From the NCBI RefSeq assembly GCF_000003605.2, contig NW_003135845.1:21336-66869 (forward strand): a stretch of DNA of 45,534 bases, written 5' to 3'. The position numbers were made by a program, and so were the translations under genes. The DNA is from Saccoglossus kowalevskii. Lineage: Eukaryota > Hemichordata > Enteropneusta > Harrimaniidae. Below the pieces are notes generated by a model. The model saw only the letters and a list, made by a program, of their open reading frames with translations, had not been told where the DNA came from and did not search any database. Position 1 is the stretch's first letter. The number at the start of each line of letters is the position of its first letter. Positions 11,501 to 40,480 of this stretch are shown in pieces.

Positions 11501-14500
11501 ATTGTATGTCATGCAGGTAAGCAGTCATTGTATGTCATGCAGGTAAGCAATCATTGTATGTCATGCAGGTAGGCAATCATTGTATGTCATGCAGGTAGGC
11601 AATCATTGTATGTCATGCAGGTAAGCAATCAATGTATGTCATGCAGGTAAGCAATCATTGTATGTCATGTTTTGTTTTTACATTGTAAACAGATCCAGTC
11701 GCCATAGTTATTTGACTTTTATGACCAAGAATGAACATGAATAAATATACTGTTAATATGCTGTTAAAAATGAGAAAAAAATGTTTTAAATAAAATGATT
11801 TAAAAATTACAACTCATGATGGAACATTGAATTACATTTTTAGTCCCTGTTCGGACACGCATCCGTGTCTCTGTGTGTCTGTGCATCCGTGCGTGCGTGC
11901 GTCCGGATCTGTATATTGGACATGCCTGGACCAATCATAATCAAACTTGACACATACATCATATATAATATTATACATAGGTATGTACATCAATTAGTTT
12001 CACGATGAGATTCAAGATGGCCGAATGGTGGCCATTTTTGTGCTAAAAAATCATCAAAATCAAGCATTTATGGATGGATTTTGTTCAAACTGTGTACATA
12101 CATTAAAGATTATGGGTTCCTGATGAACGTCAATTTATTTGTCAGATCGGATTCAAAATGGCTGACTGGCGGCCATTTTGTTTTAATGAATGCACATCTA
12201 GTGCCATATCTCTGTCATGCTTTGACTGATTATATTCAAATTGTATATATTCGTTTTACATCATGTTATAGATATATAGATGTAGTCAAAATGGCGGACT
12301 TGTGACCATTTTGTTTTAATTAATGCTGTTCCAAAGCAATATTTCTCAATATGGACAAGTACTCATTTGACGATAAGATACAAGATGTCAATCATTTTAA
12401 TGTTAAAAATCATCATAATCAAGCATCATTTTCTAGATCCATACTTCTGTCATGTTTATGTTCCAACTATATTACTATAAACAAAACTATATATCTTAAA
12501 TTTGATAACTAACGGGGACTGTGCCATGCATGGCTCGTTCTTCAATGATCTTTTATGATCAAACTATAGCTATGACTTTTACAATACCTTTATATTAATA
12601 GTGATAATTACTTAAATTTGTTATTACTTATACATGTAACAGCATTGCTACATGGTTTAATATTAAGTTCTCCCATTTATACAAGAGAATTTAAGTACAT
12701 CATTTATTGTATTAATGACGTGCTATGTTACTTTTAATCCCCACAGATCATTGGCTTGAGTGCATCTTTAGGTGTTGGAAAAGCAAGATTGCATAGTGGA
12801 GCTATAAAACACATCATAAAACTGTGTGCTAACTTAGATGCTGAAAAGATATCCACTGTTGTAAAAGAAAAAAATGAACTCATGAAATACGTGCCAATAC
12901 CCCATGAAGGTATTTATTATAGCCTTGTTTTAAAATACATTTAATAAATGAACCTTTAAATTTGCTTTAAATTTGTTTTCAAGATTAATTGATATCATTC
13001 ACACATCTTATGGAAATTTCATCATTTACTGTTCAGAAGAGCAGAACAGGTATGGCACTGCTGTGGCCTGAGGAGAGCATCTTCTAAGTGGCGGCCATTC
13101 ATTTTCGCATCCAAAGTACTTTTTAAGCACAGATCACTAAGCTGATTAAGTGCACCCTCACAATATGTACGTTAACCTATAGCATGATCACCACACTGAA
13201 CATTTCAAATGATATTTGAAGTAGATCAATTAAACATCTGAGCTATACAGATGTTTAGTCATTGGGACTGATGATTCCATCATCTTTGTCAGAATTCTGC
13301 CAGCACTATTTGTTAATATAGTTGTAAACCACTCCCCCACCCCAAGACATTGAAATATCTGCGATTCAGAAACCAGATCTTTGTCAAGCATTGACTGATT
13401 TTGTTCAAACACAATATACATACATATATGACATCTTGTAACATTTTGTACAGATCACATATTATGTATAAATTCCAAAGCCATTTCTCAGGAATTCCTG
13501 GACCGATTACATTTAAATTGTATGCATGTAGCATCCATACATTTTTTATTGCTTAACATTTCCTGACAGTCATTGCAATGCCTTACTATACTATTATTAT
13601 GCTATGATATTATTATGATTGTGTAAAATGCAAATTTTAACAAAACAAAACATAAATGCTGGTTCTTTTGTTAGATCGGTTGAGTGTTAAAGGAAGAACT
13701 GAGGATCCATTTGTGAGACAAATAAATATTATCATGTCCCGTATTGAGGAGATCATGAAAACATCTCAAGGTAATTTATATGAAAATTCATCACATAATG
13801 TACATACAAGAGGGGACAGAATGGCAATTACATGTACGATGCAAGTCTGGGGCTCTTTCTTATTTCATGGCATTGCTACCAATTACTAAATCTGATTTGG
13901 TTGAAATCCATGCATACTAATTATATAATTTGAATATTAATTAGCCAATATTGAGCTGTTGTTTGCAGATGATACAGTTTTAGATCAACTGATTGTAGAT
14001 TCGATGTGCTATAACGATTTTTGGCGAATGTGTTTTTTATTTTTCTTCAAAAAGTAGTTCATACAGTTCTGAAACAAAACTTTGGTAATGGTGAGTGCAC
14101 TAATTGCACAACAATGGTTGAACCATAATTGAGGAGGGTCAACAATTTATTAATCCCCCCCCACTAATACTTTGTTGCAACAATTTTGTAAAGCTCATCA
14201 CTTATTTGCGTACTTGTACTTCTGTACAAGGAATAAATATTTTGTTTCATGTAATAATTGTTTGTGATCCGCTTCGCTAGAATTGCCTTTAAAATCACTT
14301 TTGTCTGTGTGTGTGATTTCCTGTATCTTCACATATTAACTCTTCTATGATTTTTTTGGCTGGGCTGATTTCGCTCAAACTTGGCAGGCAGATCACACCT
14401 TCACTCTAGTTAGGTGGTAAAGTCTGAAAATTCTTGGCCCATCGTTTCCATGGCAACAATCAAAAAAATTATTTTTGAATAGCGCCAAATATATTTGCTC

Positions 14501-29500: not shown

Positions 29501-32500
29501 AGAAATATTTTAAGAGTCTTGAAGATCGACAGGAAGGGTTTGATCAGCTGGATAAAGACCTGGTACAACTTTTCCAAGGTAACTTATTTTTATGACTATT
29601 GTCAGAAGTTTATGAATACTATCTTCGGTTAGCTGTCCATGGACGTCAACTTGTATAAGATTTGTCTATCATAATCCACAGGAGAAAAAAAATTGTTTCC
29701 GCTCAAAAAAACATCCTAGGGGTTGTAAATTACAAAGATCTATTTAATATGAAGTTAAAACAGCGATTTTTCTAACAGAATCTTGTTAACACATTACTTG
29801 ATAATGCTTTTTGACTCCCGTGTGATAAGCAACAATGGGAGTCTTCTTTGTGTGTGTGTGTCCGTCTGTTCCACTGATATCTCAAGAACCATACATCGGT
29901 TTTTGATGAAACCCAATGCGCAGATTTGATTAGGTTTTGGTAGAAATCCTTGCATATTAATTACCTAATTTGCATGATAATTAGTTCATTTTTAGCTGTT
30001 CCATGACTGTTCCACTGATATCTAAAGAACCACTCATTGAATTTTGATGAAACTTGGTACATAGATGCTCTCAACTAATGCCAGGTTTTGATTAGTTTTG
30101 GGTGAAAATCTTTGCATAATAATTACCTAATTTGCGTAATGATTAGTAAATTTTCGGTTTTTCCACTGATATCTCAACTACTAATAATCACATTTCAATG
30201 AAACTTGGTACCTAGATGTCATAGGACACTGCACAGACCTGGTAGTTTTTAGGGTAATATCAGTACATATTAATTACCTATTTTGCATAATAAATTAATT
30301 TCCAGCTTTTGATATTTCAAGTAGTAAGCATTACATTTCAATAAAACAGGGTACATAGATACTCAAGGATTATGCAGATGTTGATTCTTTTGGGATAAAT
30401 ATTTGTGCATATTAATCACCAAATTTGCATATTTAGTTAATTTTAGGATTTTACCGTATATCTCAAATACTAATCATCACATTTCAATGAAACTTTGTAC
30501 ATAGGTCCTCTAAGACTATGCAGAGAACTGATTAGTTTTGGGGTAAATAATTGTGCATATTAATTACCTAATTTGCACAATTATTTAATTTTTACCTTTT
30601 TTCACTGATATCTCAAGTACTAATCATCACCTTTAAATGAATCTAAACTGTGCAGAGAGCCAATTAGTTGTTGGTATATATTTATGCATATTAATCACCT
30701 AATTTGCATATTTAACCAATTTTCAACTTTCACACTGATATCTCAAGTACTAATCATCATATTTCATAGAAACTTTGTACATGGATGCTCTAGGACAATG
30801 TACAAATATGATCAGTTTTGGGTTAAAATCTGTTCATATTAATTCCCTAATTTATTTTTACTGTGTCTCTAATACTCTTAGCACACGGGAGTTCTTTCTA
30901 AGCTTTCTTTGATTTTGACTCCTATGTGCTGAGCACATAATAGGAATTGTTGCAGTTACCTCTAGGACAATGCACCAATATCTCAGGTACAAATCATCAA
31001 ATTTCAATGATTCTTGGTAAATGAATGCTGTAAGGCAATGCGATAACCTAATAATTGGGTTGCAATATTTCCATAATAATGAAAATTGATATCTCAAAAG
31101 CTATTCATCACATAGCAATAAAATTTAATACATATGCAATGTGTTTAATATACCTACACGTAAAAAACAGCGACTTCAATTATTGCATCAATATGTTTTT
31201 GTTCTTGTGCACCTCTCTGTTTTAATTCAGAGTTATGTACAATTCTATATTTTATAGATAAGCAACCTCAGCTAGAAATTATTGCTGCTGACCCATCATT
31301 CAGTAATCCATTGCTGGAAAAACTAGGATCTTTAATCCAGTTGGCATACCAAGAAAATGATTCATCACAGGCAATTGTATTAACAAAAACCAGAGCTGCA
31401 TGCTATGCACTTCAAAGCTGGATGGAAGAGACAGATGAATTGAAACACCTCAATCCTGGTGTGTTGATTGGTAGCGGTGGCAGTGGAGAAAACCCTGGTG
31501 AGTACACATCTCCTACCAAATCTTATTGTAGTTGTGACAGTGGAGATAACCCTGGTAAGTACATACCTACCAAATCTGATTGTAGTTGTGACAGTGGAGA
31601 TAACCCTGGTAAGTACATACCTACCAAATCTGATTGTAGTTGTGACAGTGGAGATAACCCTGGTAGGTACACGCCTCCTACCTGTTTTGATACGTATTTG
31701 GGTATAAAAGTAGTCACGAAGAGGCCGTGGTCTGGATGTGTTGCAGACGCAACATTTACTAAGCCTACATCAACAAAACAGAGCATGTGCGTAAAAGTCA
31801 TAAAGGTCATGCAAACAAAAGAACATCACAATAGTTACAAACAGTAAAAATACTCAACAGTGCAAACCAATAACTGCAAAACTAATAGTAAACAGTCTAA
31901 GTCATACTGTCAAGTCAGATGGTCAGTCAAGTGGTGTATTTGTCAAGATAGGCTCGTGGTTAGACATTATGTCCACTTCGTGTCTTGGTGGGTGATTTGT
32001 ATGGTTCAGTCACTGTGGGTGTAGCTTGCAGTGCAGCGGCTGATGTCAAATCACATGTGGTATTCGACCGAGTATTTGTGGGTAATGGCCATCTGTGATG
32101 AGGTTTGTCTGTCAAGAATGAAGTGAGATTCAGCAGATTTTCTCAGGTTCATTCTGTTGCGTCGGTAGTTGCCTTTGGGTGTGTCTATGGTGTAAAATCT
32201 TTGGTCGAGACGTTGTGTCATGATGCCTTTACTCCATTTCTTCACGCCGAGGACAAACGGTTCCATTCTGATGACATCACCCATCTCTAAAACAGGTAGA
32301 TCATGGGCTTGTCTGTTGTATGAGTTGTTTGTGTCTCATTCTTTCTCGCTTTTGTTCTGAGTTGACATATCTTGGTTGTAGTAGTCTAGCTGTGGTTGGG
32401 AGTAGTGAGTGAGTGAGTGAGTGGTTGTACTGGACGGGATTCTACTCCTTGTGTAGGGGTGTTGCGCTGGTCGAGTATGGCAAGGTATCTATCGCTTTTT

Positions 32501-35500
32501 GAGTCCTTGCACTTCCTTGGAATGCGTTTTGCTTTCTTGACTGCAGATTCTACCTTTCCATTGACTTTGCTATTGTAGGGACTGGTTACCAGGTGTTCAA
32601 AGTCCCATGCTTGTGCAAATGTTCTAAACTCAGATGAAGCATATTGGGGTGTATTGTCGGATACTACTTTTCAGGGTTACCATGTCTCGCAAAATGGCTC
32701 TTTGTTGCCTTTATCACAGTAGCTGATCGTGTGTTTGGTTGTTTGTCTAGTTCGCTGTAATAGTCAACAGTCACAAGATAGTTAGTGTTGTCATATGTAA
32801 AGAGATCAGTCGCAACTTTCTGCCATGGGCGTTGAGGTAAATCGTGACTCATCAGTGTTTCCTTTGCTTGAATAGTTCTGCAGGTTACGCATGATGAGAT
32901 ATGGTGTTTCACTTCTGCTGACATGCTGGGTCAATACAGGCTAATGCATGCTCTATGTAGGCATCTCTACACACCAATATGAGATGAGTGTATGCGAGTT
33001 AGCATGTCTTTTCTTATGCTATGCGGGATGACTACTCTTCTCGAAATATCAGGCCATCATCCTGTGATGATTGTTCTCAGTAGCGTCACAGATTTTGGCC
33101 AGTCGTTCTTCTCTGATGGGTAGGAAACTAAACAAATTAATTCTGTCAAAGACGGTTTCTTTAGTACTTGCAGTTGTGGGTGGGTGTGCCCTCGACAGTG
33201 TATCTGCAATAAACATTTCTTTAACTTACCTTTACATTAATGCCATGGTTCATAGCTTTGTGTAGTGGCTTCTTCACTATTGACTCTAGTGTTTTATGAT
33301 CACTATAAACAATGGTGTGGTGGCCGTATTGTAGTAGGCTAGAATAGGTGCTGAACCAATCTTAGACATAAGTTCAGTGAAAGCTGATTTGTAAACTGTG
33401 CGCCATTCCCACTGGATATCAGAATGTGTCAGCAGTCGAATTGGCTTCATTATATCAGATAGATGAGGTAGGAATCGGCTGAGGTAGTTTACCAAGCAAT
33501 TGAGACGTTGGACATCTTCGGTATTTCTTGGAGTAGGCATGTCTTGTATTGCCCCCACTTTATCAGGGTCAACTTTGAGACCTTCTGACGTTAACAAATG
33601 TCCTTGGAAGCGAATCTCAGAACAACGAAGTTCAAGTTTTTTCTTCTTGAGCCTTATTCCTTTCTCACATCTGTTCAGCAGTTTCTTAAGATGAGTATCA
33701 TGTTCGGTAACAGTCTCAGTGAACTATTACGTCATCAGCAATACATATTACACCAGGCAAGTTCTCTAAGGCTTGATGTAATAGTTTTTGAGTTATCTCA
33801 CTCGATACATTGAAACCGAATGGAAGTCTAAGCCAATGGTATCTACCATACAGAGTAATGAATGTAGTTAACAGACTAGATTCTTCGTCAAGGACTAGAC
33901 GCCAGTATGCAGAAGACAGATCAACATTTGTGAAGATTTTAAACTTCGCTAAATCAGGTAGGTGCTCATCATGCATTGGCAACTGGTACCTTTTTCGTTA
34001 GTGGGCTTCGTTGAGGGGCTTCGGGTCGATGCATATTCAGATTTCGCCTGATTTTTAGTTGTAGTAACAAACAAACTGACTAGACTATTCTGTGGTTTTG
34101 TATACTGGGGTTAGAGCTTCTAAATTCTCAAGTCAGTCAAGCTCAGCTTGCAGTTTCGAACTGAAACTGCGACTGGTCGACACATGGAGGTTCACTTCAC
34201 CCTCAAACTTGCCTAGAGCAGTGTCATCGAACACATCAGGATAGTAAGGGTGATATTATCTTTGCTGTCAGTTTTCACTGCGTCGACTTGCTTGAAATTT
34301 CCCCTATGTATTGACAATAAGTTCATTGGTTCAGTAGCATGAAGACCAAGTAGTGGAGTTAACTTATCTCCCACTATGATGTACTCTACGGGAAAACTTC
34401 CTGCCCGACCTAGGATTGCAAATATTTAATCGACAAACTCTAATTGGCTTTACTTTGGTACCGTTCCACATTACTAAGGTTGTGGGACAAGGCTTGATTT
34501 GTATCTCTCTAACATATATAGCAGGCAAAAGGTTGACACTAGCTCCAAAGTCCAAATACAATTTTACTGGTTGCCTATCAATGACCATTTCAGCATGGAC
34601 TTGTTTCTCTTGAGAACCAACAGTGTAGACTTTTACACATGATATCCACTCAGGGTCAGGGTTAGAGTCACTGTCAGGTCGGTTGTTAGTGTCATAGTCA
34701 CAGTCAAGTACAGCATGTGCTCTACTAGATTTTCTACATTTCTTAGAAAAATGATTTCTACCCTTACATAATGAACAGGTTTTACCCCACGCTGAGCATT
34801 TAAATTTGCCAGAAACATGTTTATAACCACAAAATTGTCCCTAGTTTTTGCTTCAGGCTTTGAATATTTCTTCTCAAATTTCTGTCTTGGCTCTCTGGAT
34901 TGAGTTGACTTCACCATGTGTACTTCATGTTGACCTCCCATTTCCTCCAGTTGTGAGGCAGTTGCCTCAGCCCCATGGCAAATATCAATACAGACATTTA
35001 ATTTCAGATCACGCTCTTGTAGTAGACGTTTGCGGACTGCATTGTCCTTTATACCAATCACTATCTGGTCGCGGATGACAAAAATTACAAGTTTTTGCTA
35101 GTGTTCTGAGTGAAGTTACATATACATCAATACTCTCACCCGGCTCTTGGACTCTCTTGTTGAATAGATATCTCCCGTAGGTTTCACTTGTTTCTCCAAT
35201 AAAATGCTTGTCAAATTTCTGTATAAATTACAAATAACTGTATCAACTAGACTTTTATCTTCCCCAGCACCTTATACACTCACAGAGCTTCAGGCCCATT
35301 ATAATGTAAAAACAGGGCTAGTACACTGGAGCTTGGATCTGCAGGTTAGTAATAATGCTATAATTGCTCCAAATCTGTTTCCAGAGTTTACTACATCACC
35401 TACCAAAAATCCGTTGAAATAATAAATTACTCATAAGGCTTAATTACAGATAACAGCCCCAAACGGAAATTATTAAAGAATATACCCGGGTCCAAACGGG

Positions 35501-38500
35501 GAACACCCTATGGTAACATTCTCTAAGAAAAATGCCTCGCCTAAGGGGTTATCACCCAGGCGATCACTCTAAAAAGGGAAGTCCCCAGCCAAAGCTAACG
35601 GTGCGTTTCACAGAAAAAAATTTCTCCCTTTTCCCTTTGAGGTCGGACTCTCTGCTCAATGTAGCGAGTTTGACGACCTTCACAGCCGTCCATCTTTGAG
35701 GTGACAGATGGCGGGACATTCTCCCATTGTGAAGTTAGTTTCTCTGCGCGGTATTACCAAGGCGGGCACCGCTTTTGCCGGGGGGACTGAGTTGCCAATC
35801 ACCGCGAATACCACCATTGGTATACAGCGTGTCCCTACTTGACATTGAGTACCAAGATAGGATCAGTACAGCCCTTATGGGCTTCATCAACAGTTACGCA
35901 ACCCGCGTTGATTCCTCAAGTACAGGGACATCCCTTGTTGTCTTCCCCTACCGATGTTAGTCAGGGTGAAAGGGGCTCCTCCTATGGTAATGAGATGGCT
36001 TTCAAAGTGAATTCCCTCCTGCAGTCATGGGGTACGAGAGTCAGCTGGGAGAGGGACGGGTCGTGCTTCTGCCTGTCCCCCCTCCACCAGAACTCGGGTC
36101 AGATGTGTCGCATCCTTCCTTCGAACTCTCCCTAAGAGGATCAGGGGTGGCAACCCACATCAGTGGGGCAGCGAGCATCCACCTCTCTTATGGAGGGGGA
36201 TCCCCCTTCTGGACAGGGCACGCTATGTGCTTCCCGCCAAGTTTTCCACTCCTCCCTCAGGCACGGTCGGAGCAGGCTGCATTTCCCTTGTTTCACCAAG
36301 CTGCGCAGAGTGCCCCTACTTGTGCTCTGCAAGGGGGGACTCAGTGTTGGTAGCCCTGTGCAGGGTGGTACGCAGGCCTTCTGCGGGGCGATTTGTCATC
36401 TCTCTTCCCCTCCATTTCAGGACAGTCACAGGCTACCCAGTCAACCGGATCCCAGCTGACCCTTACTAATATGCAGTTAGGACGCAGCTTGTGAACCGGG
36501 CATTGCTTGGCATGAGACTTTTGTTCCGTGCGCAGCCGGTAGTAATCCTACGCCTGGATGGCGGAGTCGCCGTCGTTTTCATTGGTGTTCTCCTCTCTCA
36601 CTGCCGGCGAGACCACTCATGTTGGCTGACTCCCCCGGGCACCTTGTGTGGCCCTGGCTATGGTGGGGGCTCATAGGGCGATGGAGGGAGGGATGATTAG
36701 TACCCTTCGGGAGAAAAGGACAAAAAGACTGATCCTGTATTTGGGTTGGTGCTGTCCCATGCCTTCCGTTGGGGAACAGATACCCCACCGGGGCTATGCG
36801 AACCATCGATGGGTCCCTGGTGTGGGAAACCCATGCGGTACTGCAGCCTTCTCCATGGGTTCCCCGTCCCAATCCGAGTACTCATGCCTTTGTTAAGGCG
36901 GGTTGGGCAGATCGTGAAAGCCATGTTGCATGGTCATTTTACCAGAACCAGAGCCTGCAAGTGCATTGGGCTCTACAGGCAGAATTAAAACCCATATTTT
37001 TTTTAGAATGGGCTCCTTTGGCGTTAGAGCGTCAGCTCACCCTTTTAAGTTCTGATCGCCTGAGTGCTCAGCAATGAACCATGATCTTTGGGCAGTTGGG
37101 CCAGTTTCTGGCTGTGCAGAGAGTCGCTATGTGCGATATCATGCAAGTCCATACTGCCCTCTTGGCAGGACAGGTTTCGGTCGAGCAGGAGGCAGTTCTG
37201 AGTCAGTGCACCTACCCTACTCCATCGGGAGACGAGTTTGATCACCTGTGGTGAATGTCTTGGGTGCACGACCGGGTCTTTGCTGGCCGGTTAACTGATG
37301 CGGAGTATGGTTTGGCGGTTGCTGAGGATCAACATATCCAATTGAAGCAATCGTCCTCATTGACCAAGATAGCTAGTCCTTCTGGCCAGCAGTTCAAACC
37401 AAAACCGCAGGCAATAATAATAAGTCCCCCACTCTGAACCAGAAACAGCATTGATCAAAGCGCTCATGGTCTCTTTCTAGGGGCAGAAGAAGACTAGTAG
37501 CGGGAAGCGTCAGAAGAAGCCCAAGAACGTGGCTCTGGTGGTGGGTGTTTCGCCGGCTGCCTGGTCTTGAATGGTGGACGACTCTGGATTCCCTTTCCGG
37601 AGTCCTCGGGCTCAGTCTCCCCATCTTCGTCCTCCCACACTGCAGGCTGGAGGTCGGGGAGCTCTTGTTGTGAATGACCGATTTTTTTTACCGTGAAATT
37701 ATTTCCACGGATTTTCTGCTAGGTATGATTAGGTAAACAAACGGGTTTGTGCAACCCTAATAGTTTCCATTATTGTTGATCGATAACAGGGAGTTCTGCC
37801 ATAATTAATTCAACAATGTCAAAAAAGCAACAACAAAACAGAGCATGCGCGTAAAAGTCAAAAAGGTCATGCAAACAAAAGAACTTCAGCATATTGTTAC
37901 AATCTGATTGTAGTTGTGACAGTGGAAATAACCCTAGTAAGTACACACCTCCTACCCAATCTGATTGTAGTTGTGACAGTGGAGATAACCCTGATAAGTA
38001 CACACCTCCTACCCAATCAGATTGTAGTTGTGACAGTAGAGATAACCCTGGTAAGTACACACCTCCTACCCAATCAGATTGTAGTTGTGACAGTAGAGAT
38101 AACCCTAGTAAGTACACACCTCCTACCCAATCTGATTGTAGTTGTGACAGTGGAGATAACCCTGATAAGTACACACCTTCTACCCAATCAGATTGTAGTT
38201 GTGACAGTAGAGATAACCATAGTAAGTACACACCTCCTACCCAATCTGATTGCAGTTGTGACAGTGGAGATAACCCTGATAAGTACACACCTCCTACCCA
38301 ATCAGATTGTAGTTGTAACAGTAGAGATAACCCTGGTAAGTACACACCTCCTACCCAATCAGATTGTAGTTGTGACAGTAGAGATAACCCTAGTAAGTAC
38401 ACACCTCCTACCCAATCTGATTGTAGTTGTGACAGTGGAGATAACCCTGATAAGTACACACCTCCTACCCAATCAGATTGTAGTTGTGACAGTAGAGATA

Positions 38501-40480
38501 ACCCTGGTGAGTACACACCTCCTACCCAATCAGATTGTAGTTGTGACAGTAGAGAAAACCCTAGTAAGTACACACCTCCTACTCAATCAGATTGTAGTTG
38601 TGACAGTAGAGATAACCCTGGTAAGTACACACATCCTACCCAATCGGATTGTAGTTGTGACAGTAGAGATAACCCTGGTAAGTACACATCTCCTACCCAA
38701 TCAGATTGTAGTTGTGACAGTAGAGATAACCCTGGTAGGTACAAACCTCCTAGCCTGTCTGATTGTAGCTGTGATAGTCAAGACCTCCTTACCAATCTGT
38801 GAAAATATATTGTTTGTACGTGTAATTGATCATATGAAGATAATGTACATCGTGGATATATATGATTCCAAACCTTTTTCTTAATGGGTAAAGATATCAT
38901 ATAACTGCTAGATAAACAATTTGCTTTGATTTCACCATCTTAGGTCTGACACAATCAGAACAGACCAATATTCTAGAGATGTTCAAAGATGGCTGCCATC
39001 GTATTATTATTTGTACTAGTGTGGCGCAGGAAGGAATTGATATTGCAAGTTGTAATTTGGTATTCAGATATAATTATTCCAATAATGAAATTGGACGAAT
39101 ACAATCTAAAGGTATGCTATATTATATTTCAAAGTATTTACTGAAATAGCACTGAGGGCCATGTCAACTGGTACACAACAGTTTTACACATATTTTGTAA
39201 ACTAATTCAATTGACTTCTCAAAATGTATTTTTTCTCAATTAATGACATATAATCCATTGCTTGTCTCATTATTGATTTACTTTTGCCAAAATAAGGAAC
39301 GTCATGTGCTAGTCAACTCTGTTTCTATCGTTGTACTAGGCATGTACTAAAATACCATTAATGAGCAATGTTTTGACCATCATACATCTTGTATCCTGTT
39401 TTCCCATGAAGTTTAATGAAGTGAAAAGGTTCCTTCAATAGTATTATCTTTAAATGAGCAATTGAAAAGGCATACAAAACACCTTTTGTATTTAATATGT
39501 AAGTTTAGTGTTGTGTACACCCTGGGCAAAGTAACTGCTTGTTGACCACAACTGTGGCATTTACAAGCATAAAAGTACACTATAACTATATAAAATAGTA
39601 GTAACATGTCCCTTAATATTTTTGCACTAAAAATAATCAGTATACTGGCTTGTATTTAGTAGCTCATAATAGTCTTAATGTAGCCTTTTGAGATGTACCC
39701 AATCCAAAGTTATTGGGTGATCAATTAATTTGAACCAAAAACACAGTCAAGCTTCTGGAATTATTCCAAACATCCTGAATTTGTACTGAAATCTGATGAA
39801 TTTTAGGCGTTCTTCAGATATTTTTTTTTCAATTTGGTGTTTGGTTTTTCTGTACAGGTAGAAGCAGAGCCAAGGATGGAAAAACGTTTCTGGTTGCAGG
39901 AGATAAAACCGGAATAGCAGCGAGGGAACAGCTGAATATGATCAGAGAGAATATGATGTATCGAGCAATATCAGAAGTTAAACAAATGCCTAACTCTGAA
40001 TTTGATAACCGAATTATAGCAAACCAGAAGGATGACCAAACCGAACGTCGCTATTTAGCAGCAGCTGAAGCCAGTTCAAAGAGTAAGCTCGAAAGACAGA
40101 CACCAGAGAATGCCATTAAATTTCTGTGTGGAAGATGCATGGAATTTGCATGTTTATCAAGTGACTTTCGTCAACTAAAGCAAAATCACCATGTGGTAGT
40201 TGATGAGAAATTCAAGACTAGAATCACAATCAAGCCTCATGCAAAACCAAAGCAGATTGATGATCTCTTCCTGAAAGATGGGAAAGTATACTGTAAAAAG
40301 TGCATGCATGACTGGGGTATTATGGCTAAGATTCGATTTACACACTACCCTATCTTGAAAATCAGTAGTTTTGTAATGGAGATGCCAAGTGGGGGTCGCA
40401 AGGTACGTGCTAAGTGGAAAGATGCGCCCTTCGCTATCGAACCCTTCATACCTGAATACTGTGATGGAGATCAATACTGA
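2304..40480 (+). CDS. IFIH1-like: RIG-I-like receptor (MDA5/LGP2-type RNA helicase), 3' part of gene, 11 coding exons
   Basis: Join of 2304-2507, 2967-3179, 9182-9456, 10313-10390, 12747-12909, 13675-13770, 28369-28526, 29437-29578, 31258-31497, 38944-39111 and 39858-40480. All introns are GT-AG, phases agree throughout, and the join gives 785 residues plus a stop. RLRs are cytoplasmic dsRNA-activated ATPases that signal through MAVS when they carry CARDs. Seen by model residue number: motif I APTGCGKT (115-122), motif II DECH (224-227), motif III SAS (261-263), TKTRAA (486-491), motif [12 protein letters not shown] (547-557), motif VI QSKGRSR (576-582), and zinc cysteines 669, 672, 724 and 727 in the C-terminal domain. 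The stretch GTQSYEKW and the motif V-VI region resemble MDA5/LGP2 more than RIG-I. The first visible exon starts in phase 1, so the start codon and N-terminal domains lie upstream. No internal stop or frameshift is seen in any exon. Family assignment is strong; the MDA5 versus LGP2 subtype is inference. Confidence 0.93.
2508..2966 (+). other. RLR intron 1
   Basis: 459 bases, gtatag...ttacag. It contains a CAGGGATTGCACCAGGG segment near 2628 resembling one end of the MITE at 1746-1883, but no matching second end. Otherwise featureless AT-rich sequence. Confidence 0.6.
2967..3179 (+). CDS. IFIH1-like: RLR exon b: Hel1 start, Q-type region and motif I (Walker A)
   Basis: The acceptor is ttacag and the donor CACAG/gtactt, with phase 1 at both ends. 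It contains the helicase entry [20 protein letters not shown] and then Walker A APTGCGKT, the ATP phosphate-binding loop. The open frame runs about 180 bases past the donor into the intron, but that extension has no helicase similarity, so the exon is ended at 3179. Confidence 0.93.
3180..4209 (+). other. RLR intron 2, proximal part, no recognised feature
   Basis: About 1 kb of AT-rich sequence between the motif I exon and the foldback element. Short ORFs (3378-3560, 3607-3834) have no domain and unremarkable composition. The last few dozen bases (ttaccttgtccgtatcatcaaag) match the start of repeat family C and appear to be its left flank, interrupted by the foldback insertion. Confidence 0.5.
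4210..4600 (+). repeat. Foldback element, left inverted arm
   Basis: It contains about seven copies of a CGAG(T/G)GGT-type subrepeat between 4234 and 4395. A unique inner portion with cgtacgggacctcggtac and cgtacgttcaaatgcg is exactly mirrored in the right arm. Confidence 0.88.
4601..5719. other. Foldback interior, left part, no gene recognised
   Basis: Mixed-composition sequence slightly richer in CpG than the surroundings (for example tcacgcgccgccgg near 5041). No ORF has a recognisable domain and no transposase signature was found on either strand. Confidence 0.5.
5720..6740 (-). pseudogene. Non-LTR retrotransposon 3' fragment (RT C-terminus with zinc motif)
   Basis: Reading right to left, 6740-6470 shows eroded reverse-transcriptase C-terminal sequence in shifting frames (YGSDVWGDE, then a GELGR-like stretch). 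An open segment follows at 6469-6170, then [19 protein letters not shown], a CxxC...H...C motif typical of the C-terminus of CR1/Jockey-like non-LTR ORF2 proteins, with a stop at 5929. The 3' UTR reaches about 5720 and includes cattccccggagggatct. Truncated at the 5' end and frameshifted. It lies nested inside the foldback element. Confidence 0.8.
6741..7675. other. Foldback interior, right part, no gene recognised
   Basis: It contains a short direct repeat (atttatcagtac near 6790 and 6809) and a 127-codon minus-strand open frame (7071-7454) with no recognised domain. No target boundary other than the arm start at 7676 is evident. Confidence 0.45.
7676..8300 (-). repeat. Foldback element, right inverted arm
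   Basis: Inverted copy of 4210-4600 with the same inner blocks (cgtacgttattatacac, gtaccgaggtcccgtacg) and TTTTACCACTCGCA subrepeats toward the tip. Extra sequence at about 7949-8132, lacking in the left arm, looks like an insertion or arm-specific expansion. Confidence 0.88.
8301..8930 (+). repeat. Repeat family C, copy 1
   Basis: About 600 bases collinear with 16525-17110: aaggaaagggtata...aaaggg, a GTTGTTGTT or GTCGTCGTC run, taataattg, aataactttattaat, tcatcagta, tttctacttga, tcaagatctgaagcc and tttgaaa..aaaattgtact blocks in the same order. No ORF. Probably a decayed non-autonomous element, split from its left end by the foldback insertion. Confidence 0.7.
8931..9181 (+). repeat. Decayed right end of a family A repeat before exon c
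   Basis: Around 9066-9115 the sequence acccttaacacaagaag...ttgctaagcttcctttgattca resembles the right terminus of family A (agcacacgggag...ctaagctttctttgatt). The rest is AT-rich and includes the acceptor region of exon c. Confidence 0.4.
9182..9456 (+). CDS. IFIH1-like: RLR exon c: Hel1 motifs Ia to II (DECH box)
   Basis: The acceptor is aaaacag and the donor CACAG/gtgaga; phase 1 in, phase 0 out. Motif Ia region [12 protein letters not shown] is followed by the Ib/Ic region (LTGD, then [13 protein letters not shown]) and motif II VFDECHH, which coordinates Mg-ATP. All are typical of RLR Hel1. It follows the 6-kb intron 2 that contains the foldback element. Confidence 0.95.
9457..10312 (+). 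other. RLR intron 3 with repeat family F and a short tandem duplication
   Basis: 9590-9830 resembles family F at 41760-42165 (shared blocks cctatttttggtgaatattttt, gacttctt, cctctgtcaaatttgttcatttt). Further on, tctctaatttgcatacaaatatctgatt near 9940 is repeated as ctctaatttgcatacagatctgat near 9990, a roughly 55-base tandem duplication rich in gattct and its inverse. No gene. Confidence 0.5.
10313..10390 (+). CDS. IFIH1-like: RLR exon d: short Hel1 exon
   Basis: A 26-codon, phase 0-0 exon. It reads [14 protein letters not shown], the conserved stretch after the DECH box where RLRs have a PYN.IM..Y pattern, and ends in CCCCAG/gtaagc. The acceptor is weak: the T-run is separated from the AG by A-rich sequence (gaaaaag). 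The donor CAGGTAAGC is identical to the core repeated in the minisatellite about 330 bases downstream. Confidence 0.87.
10717..11669 (+). repeat. 26-bp minisatellite in RLR intron 4 with a 5' splice-site-like core in nearly every unit
   Basis: About 36.7 units of 26 bp with no length change across 953 bases. The unit has core atgCAGGTAAGCaatc followed by attgtatgtc. Donor-like cores fall every 26 bases from 10734 to 11644. By eye 16 of 36 read CAGGTAAG, 5 read CAGGTGAG and most others CAGGTAGG or CTGGTAGG. Variants occur in blocks, a sign of unequal exchange or slippage. A TAA in each unit and a non-multiple-of-three period close all frames, so it cannot be coding. Exon d, ending CAGGTAAGC, lies 326 bases upstream. 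Confidence 0.97.
11670..11841 (+). other. Unique intron 4 sequence between minisatellite and repeat B
   Basis: AT-rich with no recognised motif; it begins with a tttgtttttacatt stretch right after the last minisatellite unit. Confidence 0.5.
11842..12530 (+). repeat. Repeat family B, copy 1
   Basis: Bounded by AGTCCCTGTTCGG on the left and AACGGGGACT (12511-12520) on the right, which are inverted. It contains a gtgcgtgcgtgcgtccgg tract and then units of about 130 bp, each with gattcaa(g/a)atggc..gg(c)ggccatttttgt. Collinear with copies at 22588-23200 and 26024-26648. No ORF: a non-autonomous dispersed repeat with internal degenerate tandem structure. Confidence 0.8.
12747..12909 (+). CDS. 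IFIH1-like: RLR exon e: motif III and start of Hel2i
   Basis: The acceptor is ccccacag; phase 0 in, phase 1 out. It begins [13 protein letters not shown], where motif III (usually LTAS) reads LSAS, then [17 protein letters not shown], the helical entry to the Hel2i insertion. Both the splice sites and the conserved residues are clear. Confidence 0.94.
12910..13674 (+). other. RLR intron 5, nothing recognised
   Basis: 765 bases of AT-rich sequence. ggaattcctggaccgattacatttaaattgtatgca (about 13490) resembles the internal unit of the A/B class of repeats. No other feature. Confidence 0.5.
13675..13770 (+). CDS. IFIH1-like: RLR exon f: Hel2i helices
   Basis: A 96-base symmetric phase 1-1 exon with acceptor ttttgttag and donor CAAG/gtaatt. 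It reads [18 protein letters not shown], matching the Hel2i position of MDA5/LGP2 proteins. The next exon is 14.6 kb away, but the peptide continues naturally into it. Confidence 0.85.
13771..14279 (+). other. RLR intron 6, proximal part, nothing recognised
   Basis: The open frame of exon f runs on to 13889 but without RLR similarity. tccatgcatactaattatataatttg...ttagcc (about 13906) looks like a single decayed family A unit. No gene. Confidence 0.4.
14280..14775 (+). repeat. Degenerate tandem repeat, about 295-bp unit, two copies
   Basis: The block tttttttggctgggctgatttc...cttggcaggcagatcacacc...cactctagttaggtggtaaa (from about 14350) recurs from about 14653 as ttttttggctgggccgattttg...cttggcaggcatgtcatacc...cactctagttaggtggtaaa. 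Both are followed by a cgtttccatggca or cgttgcaactgat block. It resembles the A/B class in its ..caaacttggcaggcag.. core. No ORF. Confidence 0.7.
14776..15479. other. Intron 6 sequence, nothing recognised
   Basis: AT-rich, no ORF with a domain, no clear repeat boundary. The stretch attttgttaaataat-like and ccagttcatgtcctaccatag near 15090 did not match anything else in the window. Confidence 0.4.
15480..15665 (-). repeat. Inverted copy of the repeat at 20690-20900
   Basis: Blocks gccattctacggtgcaagatttgagtattta, attgccattccacaatg and tgtcatttaacattgcgtc occur as reverse complements at about 20745-20850. Each arm is itself made of short degenerate units around caatgccattccac. The arms are 5.2 kb apart and enclose the Penelope-like and BEL/Pao-like fragments. 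Confidence 0.75.
15666..16524. other. Intron 6 sequence, nothing recognised
   Basis: No convincing ORF or repeat. gtcgccataatggtgatcacgaaatg (16318) resembles cataatggtgatcac near 303, possibly another decayed dispersed repeat. Confidence 0.4.
16525..17110 (+). repeat. Repeat family C, copy 2 (uninterrupted start)
   Basis: It begins accatcaaagatggaatggaaagg, showing the intact left junction that the foldback element disrupts in copy 1. Then comes a GTCGTCGTCGTC run and the same order of blocks as 8301-8930, including actcatggagaga and tcaagatctgaagcc. No ORF with a domain. Confidence 0.7.
17111..17719. other. Intron 6 sequence, nothing recognised
   Basis: AT-rich; short ORFs only. It ends where the Penelope-like 3' region begins. 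Confidence 0.4.
17720..18290 (-). pseudogene. Penelope-like retroelement 3' fragment (GIY-YIG endonuclease remnant)
   Basis: On the minus strand from 18276, [29 protein letters not shown] and LRRKLESI are followed, after a stop at 18076-18078, by [16 protein letters not shown]. This order matches the C-terminal GIY-YIG domain of Penelope-like elements (R.N.DTPVA.HFN...W...L.T..P.GIN). The 3' region carries the phrase [15 protein letters not shown] with aagaagccctaattccagg and gaaacgttgaaagg, often seen at the ends of these elements. The GIY-YIG start and the RT are missing, so this is a dead 5'-truncated copy. Confidence 0.75.
18600..18912 (+). pseudogene. BEL/Pao-like gag fragment (DUF1759-type)
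   Basis: An open frame of about 90 codons reads [20 protein letters not shown] (its last residues overlap the ATG-initiated frame at 18691), then [20 protein letters not shown] and MDRLQG. The pattern L..RYG....I....M..L, then a helix, then ALG..SY..LL.PI.M..L is that of Pao/BEL gag proteins. It stops at 18907-18909. Partial and isolated. Family call moderate. Confidence 0.5.
18913..19190. other. Possible continuation of the gag fragment, out of frame
   Basis: After the stop the sequence remains richer in GC and CpG than its surroundings. It has short open pieces in several frames (for example [18 protein letters not shown]) but no motif I can name. Confidence 0.3.
19191..19700 (-). pseudogene. 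Transposon ORF remnant with a SAP-like N-terminus
   Basis: On the minus strand from 19688 the frame reads [20 protein letters not shown], then [10 protein letters not shown], followed after one stop by more sequence in the same frame including an acidic KINEDDD stretch. The W...E+R..L...G I+LP pattern resembles SAP-like or HeH DNA-binding helices found at the start of several transposon ORFs. I cannot place it in a family. Confidence 0.35.
19701..20154. other. Intron 6 sequence, nothing recognised
   Basis: AT-rich, then a short higher-GC stretch (20032 onward, open on the + strand for 99 codons) with no domain. The open frame runs into the hairpin cluster and is probably fortuitous. Confidence 0.4.
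20155..20551. repeat. Cluster of four inverted repeats with nested mini-hairpins
   Basis: 1: 20155-20285, imperfect palindrome of about 130 bp centred on CGCCGAAGGCG, arms including gatatcgcat and gatatcca. 2: 20341-20398, arms GGTCGTGATATCA and TGATATCACGACC around CGGCTTCGCC. 3: 20416-20467, arms CATATCGGAAATGACAC and GTGTTATTTCCGATAT around GACGAAGTCG. 4: 20522-20550, arms TTTGAGGTTGT and ACAACCTCAAA. The first three have a GAA or TTC loop closed by a short GC stem. No ORF of note. Confidence 0.85.
20560..20900 (+). repeat. Degenerate tandem repeat (aatggcatgacgc-type units), inverted relative to 15480-15665
   Basis: 20595-20690 has short units ending in caaatgg (gcgtcaaatggggtgg, gcgtcaaatgggcttg). 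20690-20900 has longer units: tggaatg.catgacgca, tgtgaaattgcaata, aatactcaaatct. The latter part is the reverse complement of 15480-15665. Open frames on both strands here are products of the repeat. Confidence 0.7.
20901..21409. other. Intron 6 sequence, nothing recognised
   Basis: AT-rich. A 92-codon minus-strand open frame (20974-21252) lacks any recognisable domain. Confidence 0.4.
21410..22570 (+). repeat. Repeat family A, copy 2
   Basis: It starts near attgttgggagactt with a gtgtgtttgtgtgtccgtctgt tract, followed by about five units of roughly 140 bp. Each unit has gatatctcaag, then (t)ttcaatgaaacttggtacatag, atg, ctctgg or atctagg, cctgatta, and attaattacctaatttgcataataattag. It ends cacacaggagttctttctaggatttctttgatt. 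An AT-rich stretch at 22230-22440 is inserted or diverged. No ORF. Confidence 0.8.
22588..23200 (+). repeat. Repeat family B, copy 2
   Basis: It starts GTCCCCATTCGAACGCAGTC directly after family A copy 2, then gtccgtgcgtctgg, and collinear units with gattcaagatggtcgaatggcgg and gattcaaaatgtggtggcc. It ends ataactaac at about 23199 without the cggggact terminus of the other copies. Confidence 0.75.
23201..25289. other. Intron 6 sequence, no gene recognised
   Basis: Short open frames at 23195-23479 (-) and 24956-25219 (+) have no identifiable domain. aaagggatcttttgttg and ctaggggg-type phrases do not mark a boundary I can define. The 24956-25290 stretch could be eroded upstream sequence of the non-LTR fragment that follows, but it shows no RT motif. 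Confidence 0.35.
25290..25750 (+). pseudogene. Non-LTR retrotransposon 3' fragment
   Basis: At 25384 the frame reads [20 protein letters not shown] and continues to a stop at 25602-25604 ([20 protein letters not shown] at the end). The CxxC...H...C array followed by a helical tail is the C-terminal motif of CR1/Jockey-like ORF2. The 3' flank is AT-rich with (ATT)n at 25722-25740, a plausible 3' end. Heavily 5'-truncated. Confidence 0.75.
25751..26023. other. Sequence before repeat B copy 3, including the interrupted start of an E-type unit
   Basis: ttttattttactatatattctggtttaatatatacttacttgaccaagttcaaagttt (25964-26020) matches parts of the E units at 26910-26960 and 27185-27245. Family B copy 3 therefore inserted into an E array. 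aggaaggtaaggtatagg (25851) marks another repeat edge. Confidence 0.45.
26024..26648 (+). repeat. Repeat family B, copy 3
   Basis: Starts with hairpin CCCCGTTCGGAC / GTCCGAAAACGGGG (26027-26056), then gtccgtgcgtccgtgc, then units with gattcaagatggccgaatggcgg and gattcaaaatggatgactggcgg. It ends aactaatcgggact. Same orientation as the other two copies. Confidence 0.82.
26690..27260 (+). repeat. Repeat family E, tandem units of about 340 bp with a tRNA T-arm-like hairpin
   Basis: Two units begin with cctgggttcaagcccggg (26703-26720) and cctgggttcaagcccagg (27043-27060). These are 6-bp stems closing TTCAAG, like a tRNA T-arm and B box. They continue with parallel blocks: cttcattttt, tgctttttattg, gcagtgc or gtagtgc..ggct/tagcct, and ttgaccaagt/ttggccaagttcaaagt. 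No A box was found upstream, so this is tRNA-like at most. Confidence 0.6.
27261..28368. other. Intron 6, distal part, nothing recognised
   Basis: Contains an (AT)n run at 27717-27736. A 123-codon minus-strand open frame (27532-27903) has no domain. It ends in the acceptor of exon g. Confidence 0.45.
28369..28526 (+). CDS. IFIH1-like: RLR exon g: Hel2i, GTQSYEKW segment
   Basis: The acceptor is gccaacag and the donor TTAGA/gtatgt; phase 1 in, phase 0 out. The segment [14 protein letters not shown] is characteristic of the Hel2i arm of MDA5/LGP2, which contacts the dsRNA backbone and autoregulates the helicase. It is followed by a CAAQLR helix. Confidence 0.93.
28527..29436 (+). other. RLR intron 7, nothing beyond homopolymer runs
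   Basis: Contains a G run (about 28683-28694), a T run (28901-28918) and a C run (29133-29143), plus a direct repeat caggatatatc (29090 and 29146). No gene. Confidence 0.6.
29437..29578 (+). CDS. IFIH1-like: RLR exon h: Hel2i C-terminal helices
   Basis: The acceptor is gcattcag; phase 0 in, phase 1 out. It reads [20 protein letters not shown], the conserved YN.AL.IND.....DA....L pattern of RLR Hel2i. It is separated from exon g by only 0.9 kb. Confidence 0.93.
29579..29810 (+). other. RLR intron 8, proximal part, nothing recognised
   Basis: Short AT-rich stretch between the exon h donor and the start of family A copy 3. Confidence 0.5.
29811..30916 (+). repeat. Repeat family A, copy 3 (most complete)
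   Basis: Starts with hairpin GACTCCC...GGGAGTC (29813-29843), then gtgtgtgtgtgtccgtctgt. About seven units of roughly 145 bp follow, each carrying tttcaatgaaacttggtacatag, a ctctagga-like block and attaattacctaatttgcat. It ends gcacacgggagttctttctaagctttctttgatt. The left ACTCCCGTGTG and right CACACGGGAGT ends are inverted. No ORF. Confidence 0.85.
30917..31257 (+). repeat. Repeat family A, truncated start of a further copy
   Basis: A second start hairpin (gactcctatgtgctgagcacataataggaa) immediately follows the previous copy. It is followed by one or two decayed units (tttcaatgattcttggtaaatgaatgctg) and then the acceptor region of exon i. Confidence 0.55.
31258..31497 (+). CDS. IFIH1-like: RLR exon i: start of Hel2 (motif IV region)
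   Basis: The acceptor is ttttatag and the donor ACCCTG/gtgagt, phase 1-1. It contains [11 protein letters not shown] and then [14 protein letters not shown], the first Hel2 strand and motif IV region, and ends in the glycine-rich loop [12 protein letters not shown]. Its last 32 bases (31466-31497) are homologous to the first part of every unit of the 57-bp minisatellite that follows. The open frame continues without a stop through the left array to 31847. Confidence 0.93.
31466..31682 (+). repeat. 57-bp minisatellite, left part, seeded by the exon i/intron 9 boundary
   Basis: Unit 0 is the genuine exon end plus donor: 31466-31497 exon and gtgagtacac from 31498. Units of 54 bp follow at 31524 and 31578 and a partial unit at 31632, each repeating cagtggagataaccctg followed by gtaagtac or gtaggtac. 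Donor-like GTs therefore lie at 31498, 31555, 31609 and 31663. Spacings are 57, 54 and 54, all multiples of three, and the frame of the exon stays open throughout. The array is cut at 31682 by the LTR of the Gypsy element. Confidence 0.93.
31683..31839 (-). repeat. Gypsy 3' LTR candidate
   Basis: 157 bases running TGTTTTGATACG to GTTACA on the plus strand, between the broken minisatellite unit and the element's interior. Only its last 69 bases match the right-hand copy at 37831-37901, so the right LTR is either truncated or very diverged. No purine-rich tract is obvious beside it. Confidence 0.5.
32051..32930 (-). pseudogene. Gypsy integrase remnant
   Basis: Minus strand: [16 protein letters not shown] (end of the HHCC zinc finger), [20 protein letters not shown] (first catalytic Asp region), then [10 protein letters not shown]. 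After a frameshift follow [15 protein letters not shown] (catalytic Glu region) and a C-terminal stretch with [16 protein letters not shown]. All are typical Ty3/Gypsy integrase landmarks. Several stops break the frame, so it is inactive. Confidence 0.82.
33000..34260 (-). pseudogene. Gypsy reverse transcriptase and RNase H remnant
   Basis: Minus strand: [65 protein letters not shown] and IADDVIVH (the active-site DD). Then [14 protein letters not shown] and [19 protein letters not shown] (connection), and RNase H-end phrases [17 protein letters not shown] and [11 protein letters not shown]. Stops and frame changes occur between segments. Confidence 0.88.
34364..34590 (-). pseudogene. Gypsy aspartic protease remnant
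   Basis: Minus strand reads [30 protein letters not shown]. The catalytic D(S/T)G triad of retropepsins appears as DFG, a damaged active site, in the right context after the zinc knuckle and before RT. Confidence 0.75.
34591..35225 (-). pseudogene. Gypsy gag C-terminal part with zinc knuckle
   Basis: Minus strand: [60 protein letters not shown] and [15 protein letters not shown]. Then, shifted in frame, [14 protein letters not shown], a CCHC-type knuckle. The order and phrases match Gypsy gag-nucleocapsid. At least two frameshifts. Confidence 0.8.
35226..35449. other. Junction between Gypsy gag and the GC-rich segment
   Basis: AT-rich; a 72-codon plus-strand frame (35204-35422) has no domain. 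The upstream gag portion that should follow on the minus strand is not recognisable, so the junction marks a deletion or insertion. Confidence 0.4.
35450..37740 (+). pseudogene. GC-rich eroded coding segment, possibly DIRS-like or other retroelement gag
   Basis: Base composition changes sharply to GC-rich with frequent CpG. Open pieces on the plus strand align in one frame from 36769 to 37437 with only two TGA stops (37075 and 37252). They read [57 protein letters not shown], then QFKPKPQ, and in another frame a basic [14 protein letters not shown] tail. It looks like a structural (gag-like) protein with a basic C-terminus. DIRS elements are my best guess, but no RT or tyrosine recombinase is present to prove it. 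Confidence 0.45.
37741..37830. other. Right edge of the nested insertion
   Basis: AT-rich sequence between the GC-rich segment and the LTR-like repeat. It could be diverged 5' LTR, but I see no clear match to 31683-31770. Confidence 0.35.
37831..37901 (-). repeat. Gypsy 5' LTR outer-end candidate
   Basis: 71 bases matching 31771-31839 with about ten differences, ending GTTACA on the plus strand. It is directly followed by atctgattgtagttgtgac, the interior of a minisatellite unit. Confidence 0.6.
37902..38790 (+). repeat. 57-bp minisatellite, right part, with a three-unit higher-order pattern
   Basis: Fifteen full units of exactly 57 bp from 37906 to 38760 and a diverged partial unit from 38761. 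In the plus frame the unit encodes [19 protein letters not shown] and close variants. The donor-like position reads GGTAAGT, AGTAAGT or GATAAGT. The order GAT, GGT, AGT recurs in units 2-3-4, 7-8-9 and 10-11-12 (units 5-6 lack the middle member), a 171-bp higher-order repeat. Eleven of 15 units keep the GT. It is open in several frames on both strands because 57 is divisible by three. Confidence 0.95.
38944..39111 (+). CDS. IFIH1-like: RLR exon j: Hel2 motifs V and VI
   Basis: The acceptor is accatcttag and the donor TAAAG/gtatgc, phase 1-1. [14 protein letters not shown] is followed by [15 protein letters not shown] (motif V) and NEIGRIQSK, which completes motif VI with the first codons of the next exon. 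It starts about 170 bases after the end of the right half of the split minisatellite. Confidence 0.95.
39112..39857 (+). other. RLR intron 10, nothing recognised
   Basis: 746 AT-rich bases, gtatgc...gtacag. It contains ttatttagtgac-free, unremarkable sequence; no repeat match found in the window. Confidence 0.55.
39858..40480 (+). CDS. IFIH1-like: RLR exon k: end of motif VI, pincer and zinc-binding C-terminal domain
   Basis: The terminal coding exon has acceptor tctgtacag and ends in TGA at 40478-40480. The first residues give the arginines of motif VI (GRSRA). Helical pincer sequence follows ([15 protein letters not shown]), then the C-terminal RNA-binding domain. That domain has CGRC and CKKC zinc pairs about 50 residues apart and a basic stretch ([15 protein letters not shown]) expected to face dsRNA. 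The whole domain sits in one exon. Length matches complete RLR C-termini. Confidence 0.95.

Follow-up and report, generated by a model that had tools for sequence, protein, structure and literature searches.

The RLR gene and the array within it

The window (the whole stretch of DNA analysed here, 45,534 nucleotides) lies on the contig labelled C2797 in a genome of 572 Mb and 4830 contigs. It contains a gene for a RIG-I-like receptor (RLR), recognized by a Hel2 region with RLR sequence together with a C-terminal regulatory domain (Table 1). When the exons at 31258-31497 and 38944-39111 were joined, the product aligned with human RIG-I with a best E value of 8.3e-28; the first of the two, taken by itself, matched no Pfam family. 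Upstream, the frame at 29428-29592 matches the Pfam RIG-I_C model (E 1.3e-13). At its 3' end the exon at 31258-31497 is in phase 1 (...GENP-G); the exon that follows starts at 38944. The exon/intron boundary relevant to the array was placed from the RIG-I alignment.

Table 1. Features of the RLR locus (window coordinates; a slash marks the exon/intron boundary)
Feature	Position	Strand	Basis
Additional donor-bearing minisatellite (26 bp x 36.7; unit AATCATTGTATGTCATGCAG/GTAAGC), within a different intron of this RLR gene	10717..11669	+	TRF
RLR exon, first part of Hel2 (exon 9 of the preliminary description), 240 nt	31258..31497	+	RIG-I alignment jointly with 38944-39111; acceptor AG and translation; start predicted
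Seed segment, final 32 nt of exon and initial 25 nt of intron, homologous to the array unit	31466..31522	+	Alignment and shuffles
Putative native 5' splice donor, CTG/GTGAGT	31498..31499	+	Top donor score in left array; join gapless at junction against RIG-I
Left array, 3 added junction copies in frame (57, 54, 54 bp), donors 31555/31609/31663	31523..31682	+	TRF and junction read-out
LTR retrotransposon insertion with reverse transcriptase and integrase-like pieces and a GC-rich block; no target-site duplication seen	31683..37901	-	Left LTR start placed from TG...CA
Left LTR, high-coordinate end common to the right copy and a third copy on contig C4618	31683..31839	-	Sequence comparison
First in-frame stop (TAA) past left array, just within the insertion; blocks exon extension into right array	31845..31847	+	Frame reading
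Right LTR fragment, 91% over 66 bp against left LTR	37828..37901	-	Sequence comparison
Right array, 15 junction copies of 57 bp (11 GT, 4 AT), then a degenerate donor-less unit 38761-38799	37902..38799	+	TRF and junction read-out
Next RLR exon, Helicase_C, LTQSEQ...	38944..39111	+	Pfam Helicase_C E 5.9e-12 over 38946-39110; boundaries read from sequence
Reading frame with RIG-I C-terminal regulatory domain	39821..40360	+	Pfam RIG-I_C-RD E 2.1e-21

A 57-bp unit homologous to the exon/intron junction

Tandem arrays were located by TRF at 31465-31671 and 37900-38778, and all of the junctions within them were read out. There are 19 in total, four on the left (native donor included) and 15 on the right. 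The left donors lie at 31498, 31555, 31609 and 31663, with spacings of 57, 54 and 54 bp, and those on the right run from 37937 to 38735, one per 57 bp. Our recount of retained GT dinucleotides, four of four on the left with the native donor included and 11 of 15 on the right (15 of 19 overall), is the same as that of the preliminary description. The four donor-less right junctions all carry one change, G-to-A at +1, giving AT. At 39 nt, the last right unit (38761-38799) falls 18 nt below the usual 57 and no longer carries a donor.

The unit aligns with the exon end and intron start over 57 columns with one gap. On the exon side the local alignment score was 19, compared with a shuffle maximum of 12, and none of 1000 dinucleotide shuffles reached it; for the whole junction the score was 38 against a shuffle maximum of 20, again with none of 1000 dinucleotide shuffles reaching it. 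Outside the donor consensus, 18 of the 20 intron bases from +7 to +26 agree with the unit, the maximum being 10 among 250 control GTRAG sites drawn from the window and from 13 sampled stretches of the genome. A genome search with the array sequence gave seven matches among the best-scoring candidates, all at the RLR locus, in an assembly of which parts read N, and the same search revealed no second locus or haplotype of the array. Since the exon homology beats the shuffles, the intron-side match beats the controls and only this locus was found, the seeding of the array from the RLR exon/intron junction is sound. These results bear out two proposals made in the preliminary description, namely that the unit joins the end of the RLR Hel2 exon to the first bases of its intron, and that the array was seeded by this junction. 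The case named there as contrary to seeding, an array elsewhere in the genome unlinked to any gene, was looked for, and the genome matches fell only at this locus. Although the genome is rich in tandem repeats and parts of its assembly read N, it is exceedingly improbable that an unrelated satellite landed by the exon through chance, and we reject this explanation on the exon homology and the single-locus genome search.

With the unit types coded at the junction as A (AGT), D (GAT) and G (GGT), the right array reads A D G A D A D G A D G A G G G, so that types recur in a higher-order pattern along it. Along the right array, likeness is greatest between units at lags 3 and 5 (mean differences 3.1 and 3.0, respectively), compared with 4.1 for neighbours and 3.7 to 4.4 for lags 2, 4, 6 and 7. 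Because unit types recur in blocks, with likeness at lags 3 and 5, the dead-donor type was probably spread by block amplification, as in neutral repeat turnover.

An LTR retrotransposon splits the array

Between the two halves of the array lies an insertion of 6.2 kb with the features of an LTR retrotransposon. It carries LTRs, a reverse transcriptase piece (RVT_1, E 5.4e-11, score 43 against a cut-off of 29.6) and an integrase match (rve) that falls below its cut-off (25.0 against 32.6), the latter two on the minus strand. Six of the eight pieces of the insert tested against Pfam gave no match. The LTR end, ...GTTACA, was established from the left LTR, the right fragment and the copy on C4618, this third copy reading GTAACA. 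The two LTRs share 91% identity across 66 bp, which means that the element did not insert very recently. We take the insert to be Ty3-like. Elements of this kind generate target-site duplications of 4-6 bp; none was found at the flanks of the insertion, though both element ends look intact. A GC-rich block occupies 35400-37820 within the insertion, with 52% GC at 36-38 kb, and three of its frames tested against Pfam gave no match.

The array stops at ...CCTACC and restarts at ATCTGATTG... (ATCTG), two unit bases short of perfect register. The left and right arrays of the preliminary description are both there, but as one array cut by the insertion; with the register good to two bases, the possibility of two separate arrays was ruled out.

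Donor choice

The protein obtained when 31498 is joined to 38944 shows no gap at the junction in its alignment with human RIG-I; one single-residue gap lies about 15 residues further downstream. Donor scores, computed from a frequency table, were 11.7 bits for 31498 and 10.8, 10.8 and 9.2 bits for the left copies; calculated U1 pairing was -10.6 kcal/mol for the native donor and -10.5, -10.5 and -10.2 kcal/mol for the copies. On the basis of the gapless RIG-I junction and the best donor score, we take the first donor, 31498, to be native. Leakage to the left copies is plausible because they are near native strength and all in frame. It is highly improbable that 31663 or another copy is now the main donor, so that the RLR would constitutively carry an insertion of 19-55 residues. 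The donor scores differ little and the DNA forbids nothing of the kind, but 31498 scores best and reproduces the RIG-I loop length, and 31663 is the weakest of the four left donors.

Reading frame and coding constraint

We confirmed the earlier finding that the 57- and 54-bp units keep phase and that the exon frame is open across the left array, up to the stop at 31845. Because this stop and the 6.2-kb insertion intervene, only three extra donors could be reached by the exon, with possible additions of 19, 37 or 55 residues. The count of up to about 19 in-frame copies given in the preliminary description therefore holds for the DNA, but as an exon extension only the three added left copies are reachable, and donors of the right array were ruled out in this role by the stop.

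When the unit is 57 bp long, 63% of random 26-nt fragments drawn from the window keep the frame stop-free, and a second plus-strand frame is likewise open across the left array. With chance openness this high, the open frame and the phase weigh little as evidence, and we rejected the open frame as a sign of selection. In the exon frame, five of 20 distinct variants among the right units are synonymous (0.23 expected), compared with seven of 20 (0.29 expected) and six of 20 (0.25 expected) in the other two frames. The right units show no coding constraint; this result covers the right units, the left array having too few differences for a selection test. A PDB search with the peptide that the left copies would insert gave no hit at E values up to 1. 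Against Pfam it gave nothing above cut-off, its one EGF-type match (E 0.034; 14.4 bits) falling below the cut-off of 27, and on the PDB and Pfam results we rejected a known domain.

Position of a would-be insertion in the Hel2 loop

The junction aligns with RIG-I G672, in an alignment that covers residues 597-727 of the full-length chain. The RIG-I Hel2 translocation loop comprises residues 664-685, and the T667E and T671E mutants lower translocation and signalling (PMC11346460). In MDA5, dsRNA-dependent ATP hydrolysis requires the Hel2 loop at 758-767, which reaches into the major groove of the RNA (PMC6310684). As the junction lies inside the Hel2 translocation loop, the idea that the copies generate isoforms is made testable, not supported. 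If ever used, the three left copies could lengthen this RNA-gripping loop; a module of 18-19 residues there would be a strong change, with harm likelier than tuning.

According to one form of this idea, tandem alternative donors would produce a family of RLR isoforms, in which donor 1, 2 or 3 adds 19, 37 or 55 residues to the loop in the dsRNA groove and so tunes translocation or signalling. Three left extensions that are in frame, stop-free and served by strong donors speak for it, as do the position of the junction within a loop whose mutants lose function and the part played by the MDA5 loop. MIR137, in which variable tandem repeat length changes the use of nearby donors (PMC6692358), also favours it. 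Against it stand the likelihood that phase and openness arose by chance, an inserted peptide without significant matches, the probable harm of an insertion in a contact loop, the absence of coding constraint in the right units and the normal splicing reported for comparable arrays in amphioxus (see below). Overall, we consider this explanation unlikely. A related form, in which minisatellite copy number sets the number of in-frame donors and thereby a length-polymorphic RNA-contact loop, longer by 0, 19, 37 or 55 residues, is decidedly unlikely. The tunable isoform generator envisaged in the preliminary description was not supported: the right donors are unreachable, phase comes cheaply by chance, the right units show no coding constraint, and four of these 15 units carry a donor-killing change.

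A second donor-bearing array in the same gene

The 26-bp array sits in the intron that follows ...KPEAPRPQ/, with its native donor at 10391. Its unit carries CAG/GTAAGC, and the array holds 38 sites above 4 bits. We observed no homology of the unit with the exon side (4/20). Intron bases +7 to +18 match those of the native donor at eight of 12 positions, a value reached by three of 250 control sites, and over +7 to +26 the match is just 9/20. The local alignment score of 13 was reached by six of 1000 simple shuffles, which ignore the shared donor consensus. In the genome search this array gave four matches, all at the RLR locus. Taken together, the comparison suggests that the 26-bp array may have been seeded from the start of its intron.

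Donor copies might instead act unspliced, by serving as decoys for U1 snRNP, which could slow splicing or protect the long introns against premature polyadenylation. The window has 25 sites on the plus strand that are at least as strong as donor 31498, and one on the minus strand. Twenty-one of the 25 fall in the 26-bp array and two, 31498 itself and 38507, in the array of 57-bp units, which therefore contributes just one added site of that strength. RNA structure around the left donors was not beyond chance (z 0.10). Across the genome, tandem triples of AGGTAAG (1879 + 2714 = 4593) are not clearly commoner than those of the reversed motif (2551 + 1131 = 3682); these counts are of matches, so that long arrays weigh most, and places are known from the first listed of each. 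A decoy role thus seems quite improbable. Donor motifs are not clearly enriched in tandem arrays genome-wide, and because tandem donor motifs do not clearly exceed the reversed motif we claim no general rule.

We also sampled 13 stretches of the genome (L019-L031; 127,752 letters in total, 52,472 of them N). With TRF periods of 12 or more, these contained 14 distinct array places after overlapping rows were merged. One had a unit with GGTAAG (L021) and one a unit with only AGGTA, on the minus strand (L023), numbers too few for testing. The former, at L021 3292-3815, is a 41-bp x 12.8 array with AGGTAAG, next to a masked region.

Relatives in the genome

A genome search for relatives gave eight matches, two of them the RLR gene's own exons. 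Two further exon matches belong to a helicase relative on C3161 (L016 2365-2944, minus strand), which has a 580-bp intron after MTQ, 11 nt downstream of the arrayed one. The sole tandem repeat listed in the 580-bp intron is 18 bp x 2.1, without donor motif. Two relatives on C2922 and a weak one on C4173 have no intron at the site, and the match to the C1168 relative does not cover it. Near intron pairs ascribed to intron sliding or tandem duplication are described in Drosophila (PMC2891723). The C3161 intron resembles these in its position, judged by eye, but differs in that its 5' and 3' junctions show no similarity by eye; intron sliding between the C3161 relative and the RLR gene is possible.

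Comparison with known systems

Tandem repeats of exon/intron boundaries, known as mirages, have been reported in amphioxus in Adh3, the globins BflGb6 and BflGb9, TnC and PGBD5 (PMC3087553, PMC3902484). According to the same papers, units are 10-72 bp in Adh3 and 150-160 bp in the globins, many but not all of them keep splice signals, and the arrays undergo allelic and somatic length changes; splicing is reported to be normal, and the authors allow that copies could serve as cryptic sites. The RLR array shares with these the head-to-tail unit across a real exon/intron boundary (placed here by the RIG-I alignment) and the retention of the splice signal in many but not all copies. It differs in belonging to an RLR gene, in its 19 junctions, in having an LTR element between its halves and in lying in a genome that looks unlike a lancelet's. 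Internal tandem repeats at exon-intron boundaries also occur in human segmental duplications, where minisatellites are kept in or spliced out (PMC2812944); unlike the RLR array, those belong to paralogues of recent primate origin and are backed by transcripts. Earthworm metallothionein genes have large minisatellite arrays in intron 1 and in this respect resemble the RLR gene as another invertebrate case, but boundary-spanning units are not described in the available part of that paper (PMC12783039), which we set aside as a mirage outside lancelets. PMC7960049 was also set aside, 'Mirage' in its available part being a transposon class. Our literature search found no such array in an RLR gene, which is no proof of absence.

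We consider it likely that the RLR array is a splice-junction minisatellite of the mirage type, in which the first donor is native, the array as a whole is without coding constraint and the left copies are perhaps used occasionally. The steps that we infer are that a stretch of about 57 bp, reaching from the end of the RLR exon across its donor, underwent head-to-tail duplication within the intron, and that slippage or unequal exchange then expanded the unit to about 19 junction copies, with amplification in multi-unit blocks. Later, an LTR retrotransposon would have split the array. The copies would lie in the intron, with donor 31498 yielding the normal mRNA and the three left copies perhaps used occasionally, in frame. 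The array is probably harmless intron DNA. Counted against this explanation are the left donors, nearly as strong as the native one and all in frame, the restriction of the available mirage papers to lancelets, from which the genome here looks different, and the effect of repeat length on nearby donors in MIR137.

Splice-junction minisatellites are an odd and little-studied class, published, as far as the available sources go, for amphioxus genes and, in related form, for young human paralogues. The RLR array appears to be a real, well-formed example of this class, in a gene that is new to it and probably in an animal branch that is new as well, and is unlikely to be an isoform generator. A large junction array in an immune sensor of a probably non-lancelet invertebrate, and another candidate array in that gene, suggest that the process is more widespread. 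The in-frame donor copies of the RLR array fall in a protein loop of known mechanism and would be either harmless DNA or a new source of isoforms.

It is probable that this mirage-type array belongs to a non-lancelet invertebrate. A search of the genome for the GFP family as a lancelet marker gave no match, but the control search was equally empty, which makes this negative a weak one. None of the lancelet mitochondrial gene orders described in the available part of PMC2034537 fits that of the mitochondrial contig found here. On this contig (L035) the order is nad1(+), cox1(-), trnQ, trnA, cox2(+), with cox1 in the reverse orientation to the genes beside it. Here TGA codes for Trp, and AGA in nad1 falls at what we take to be a conserved serine position.
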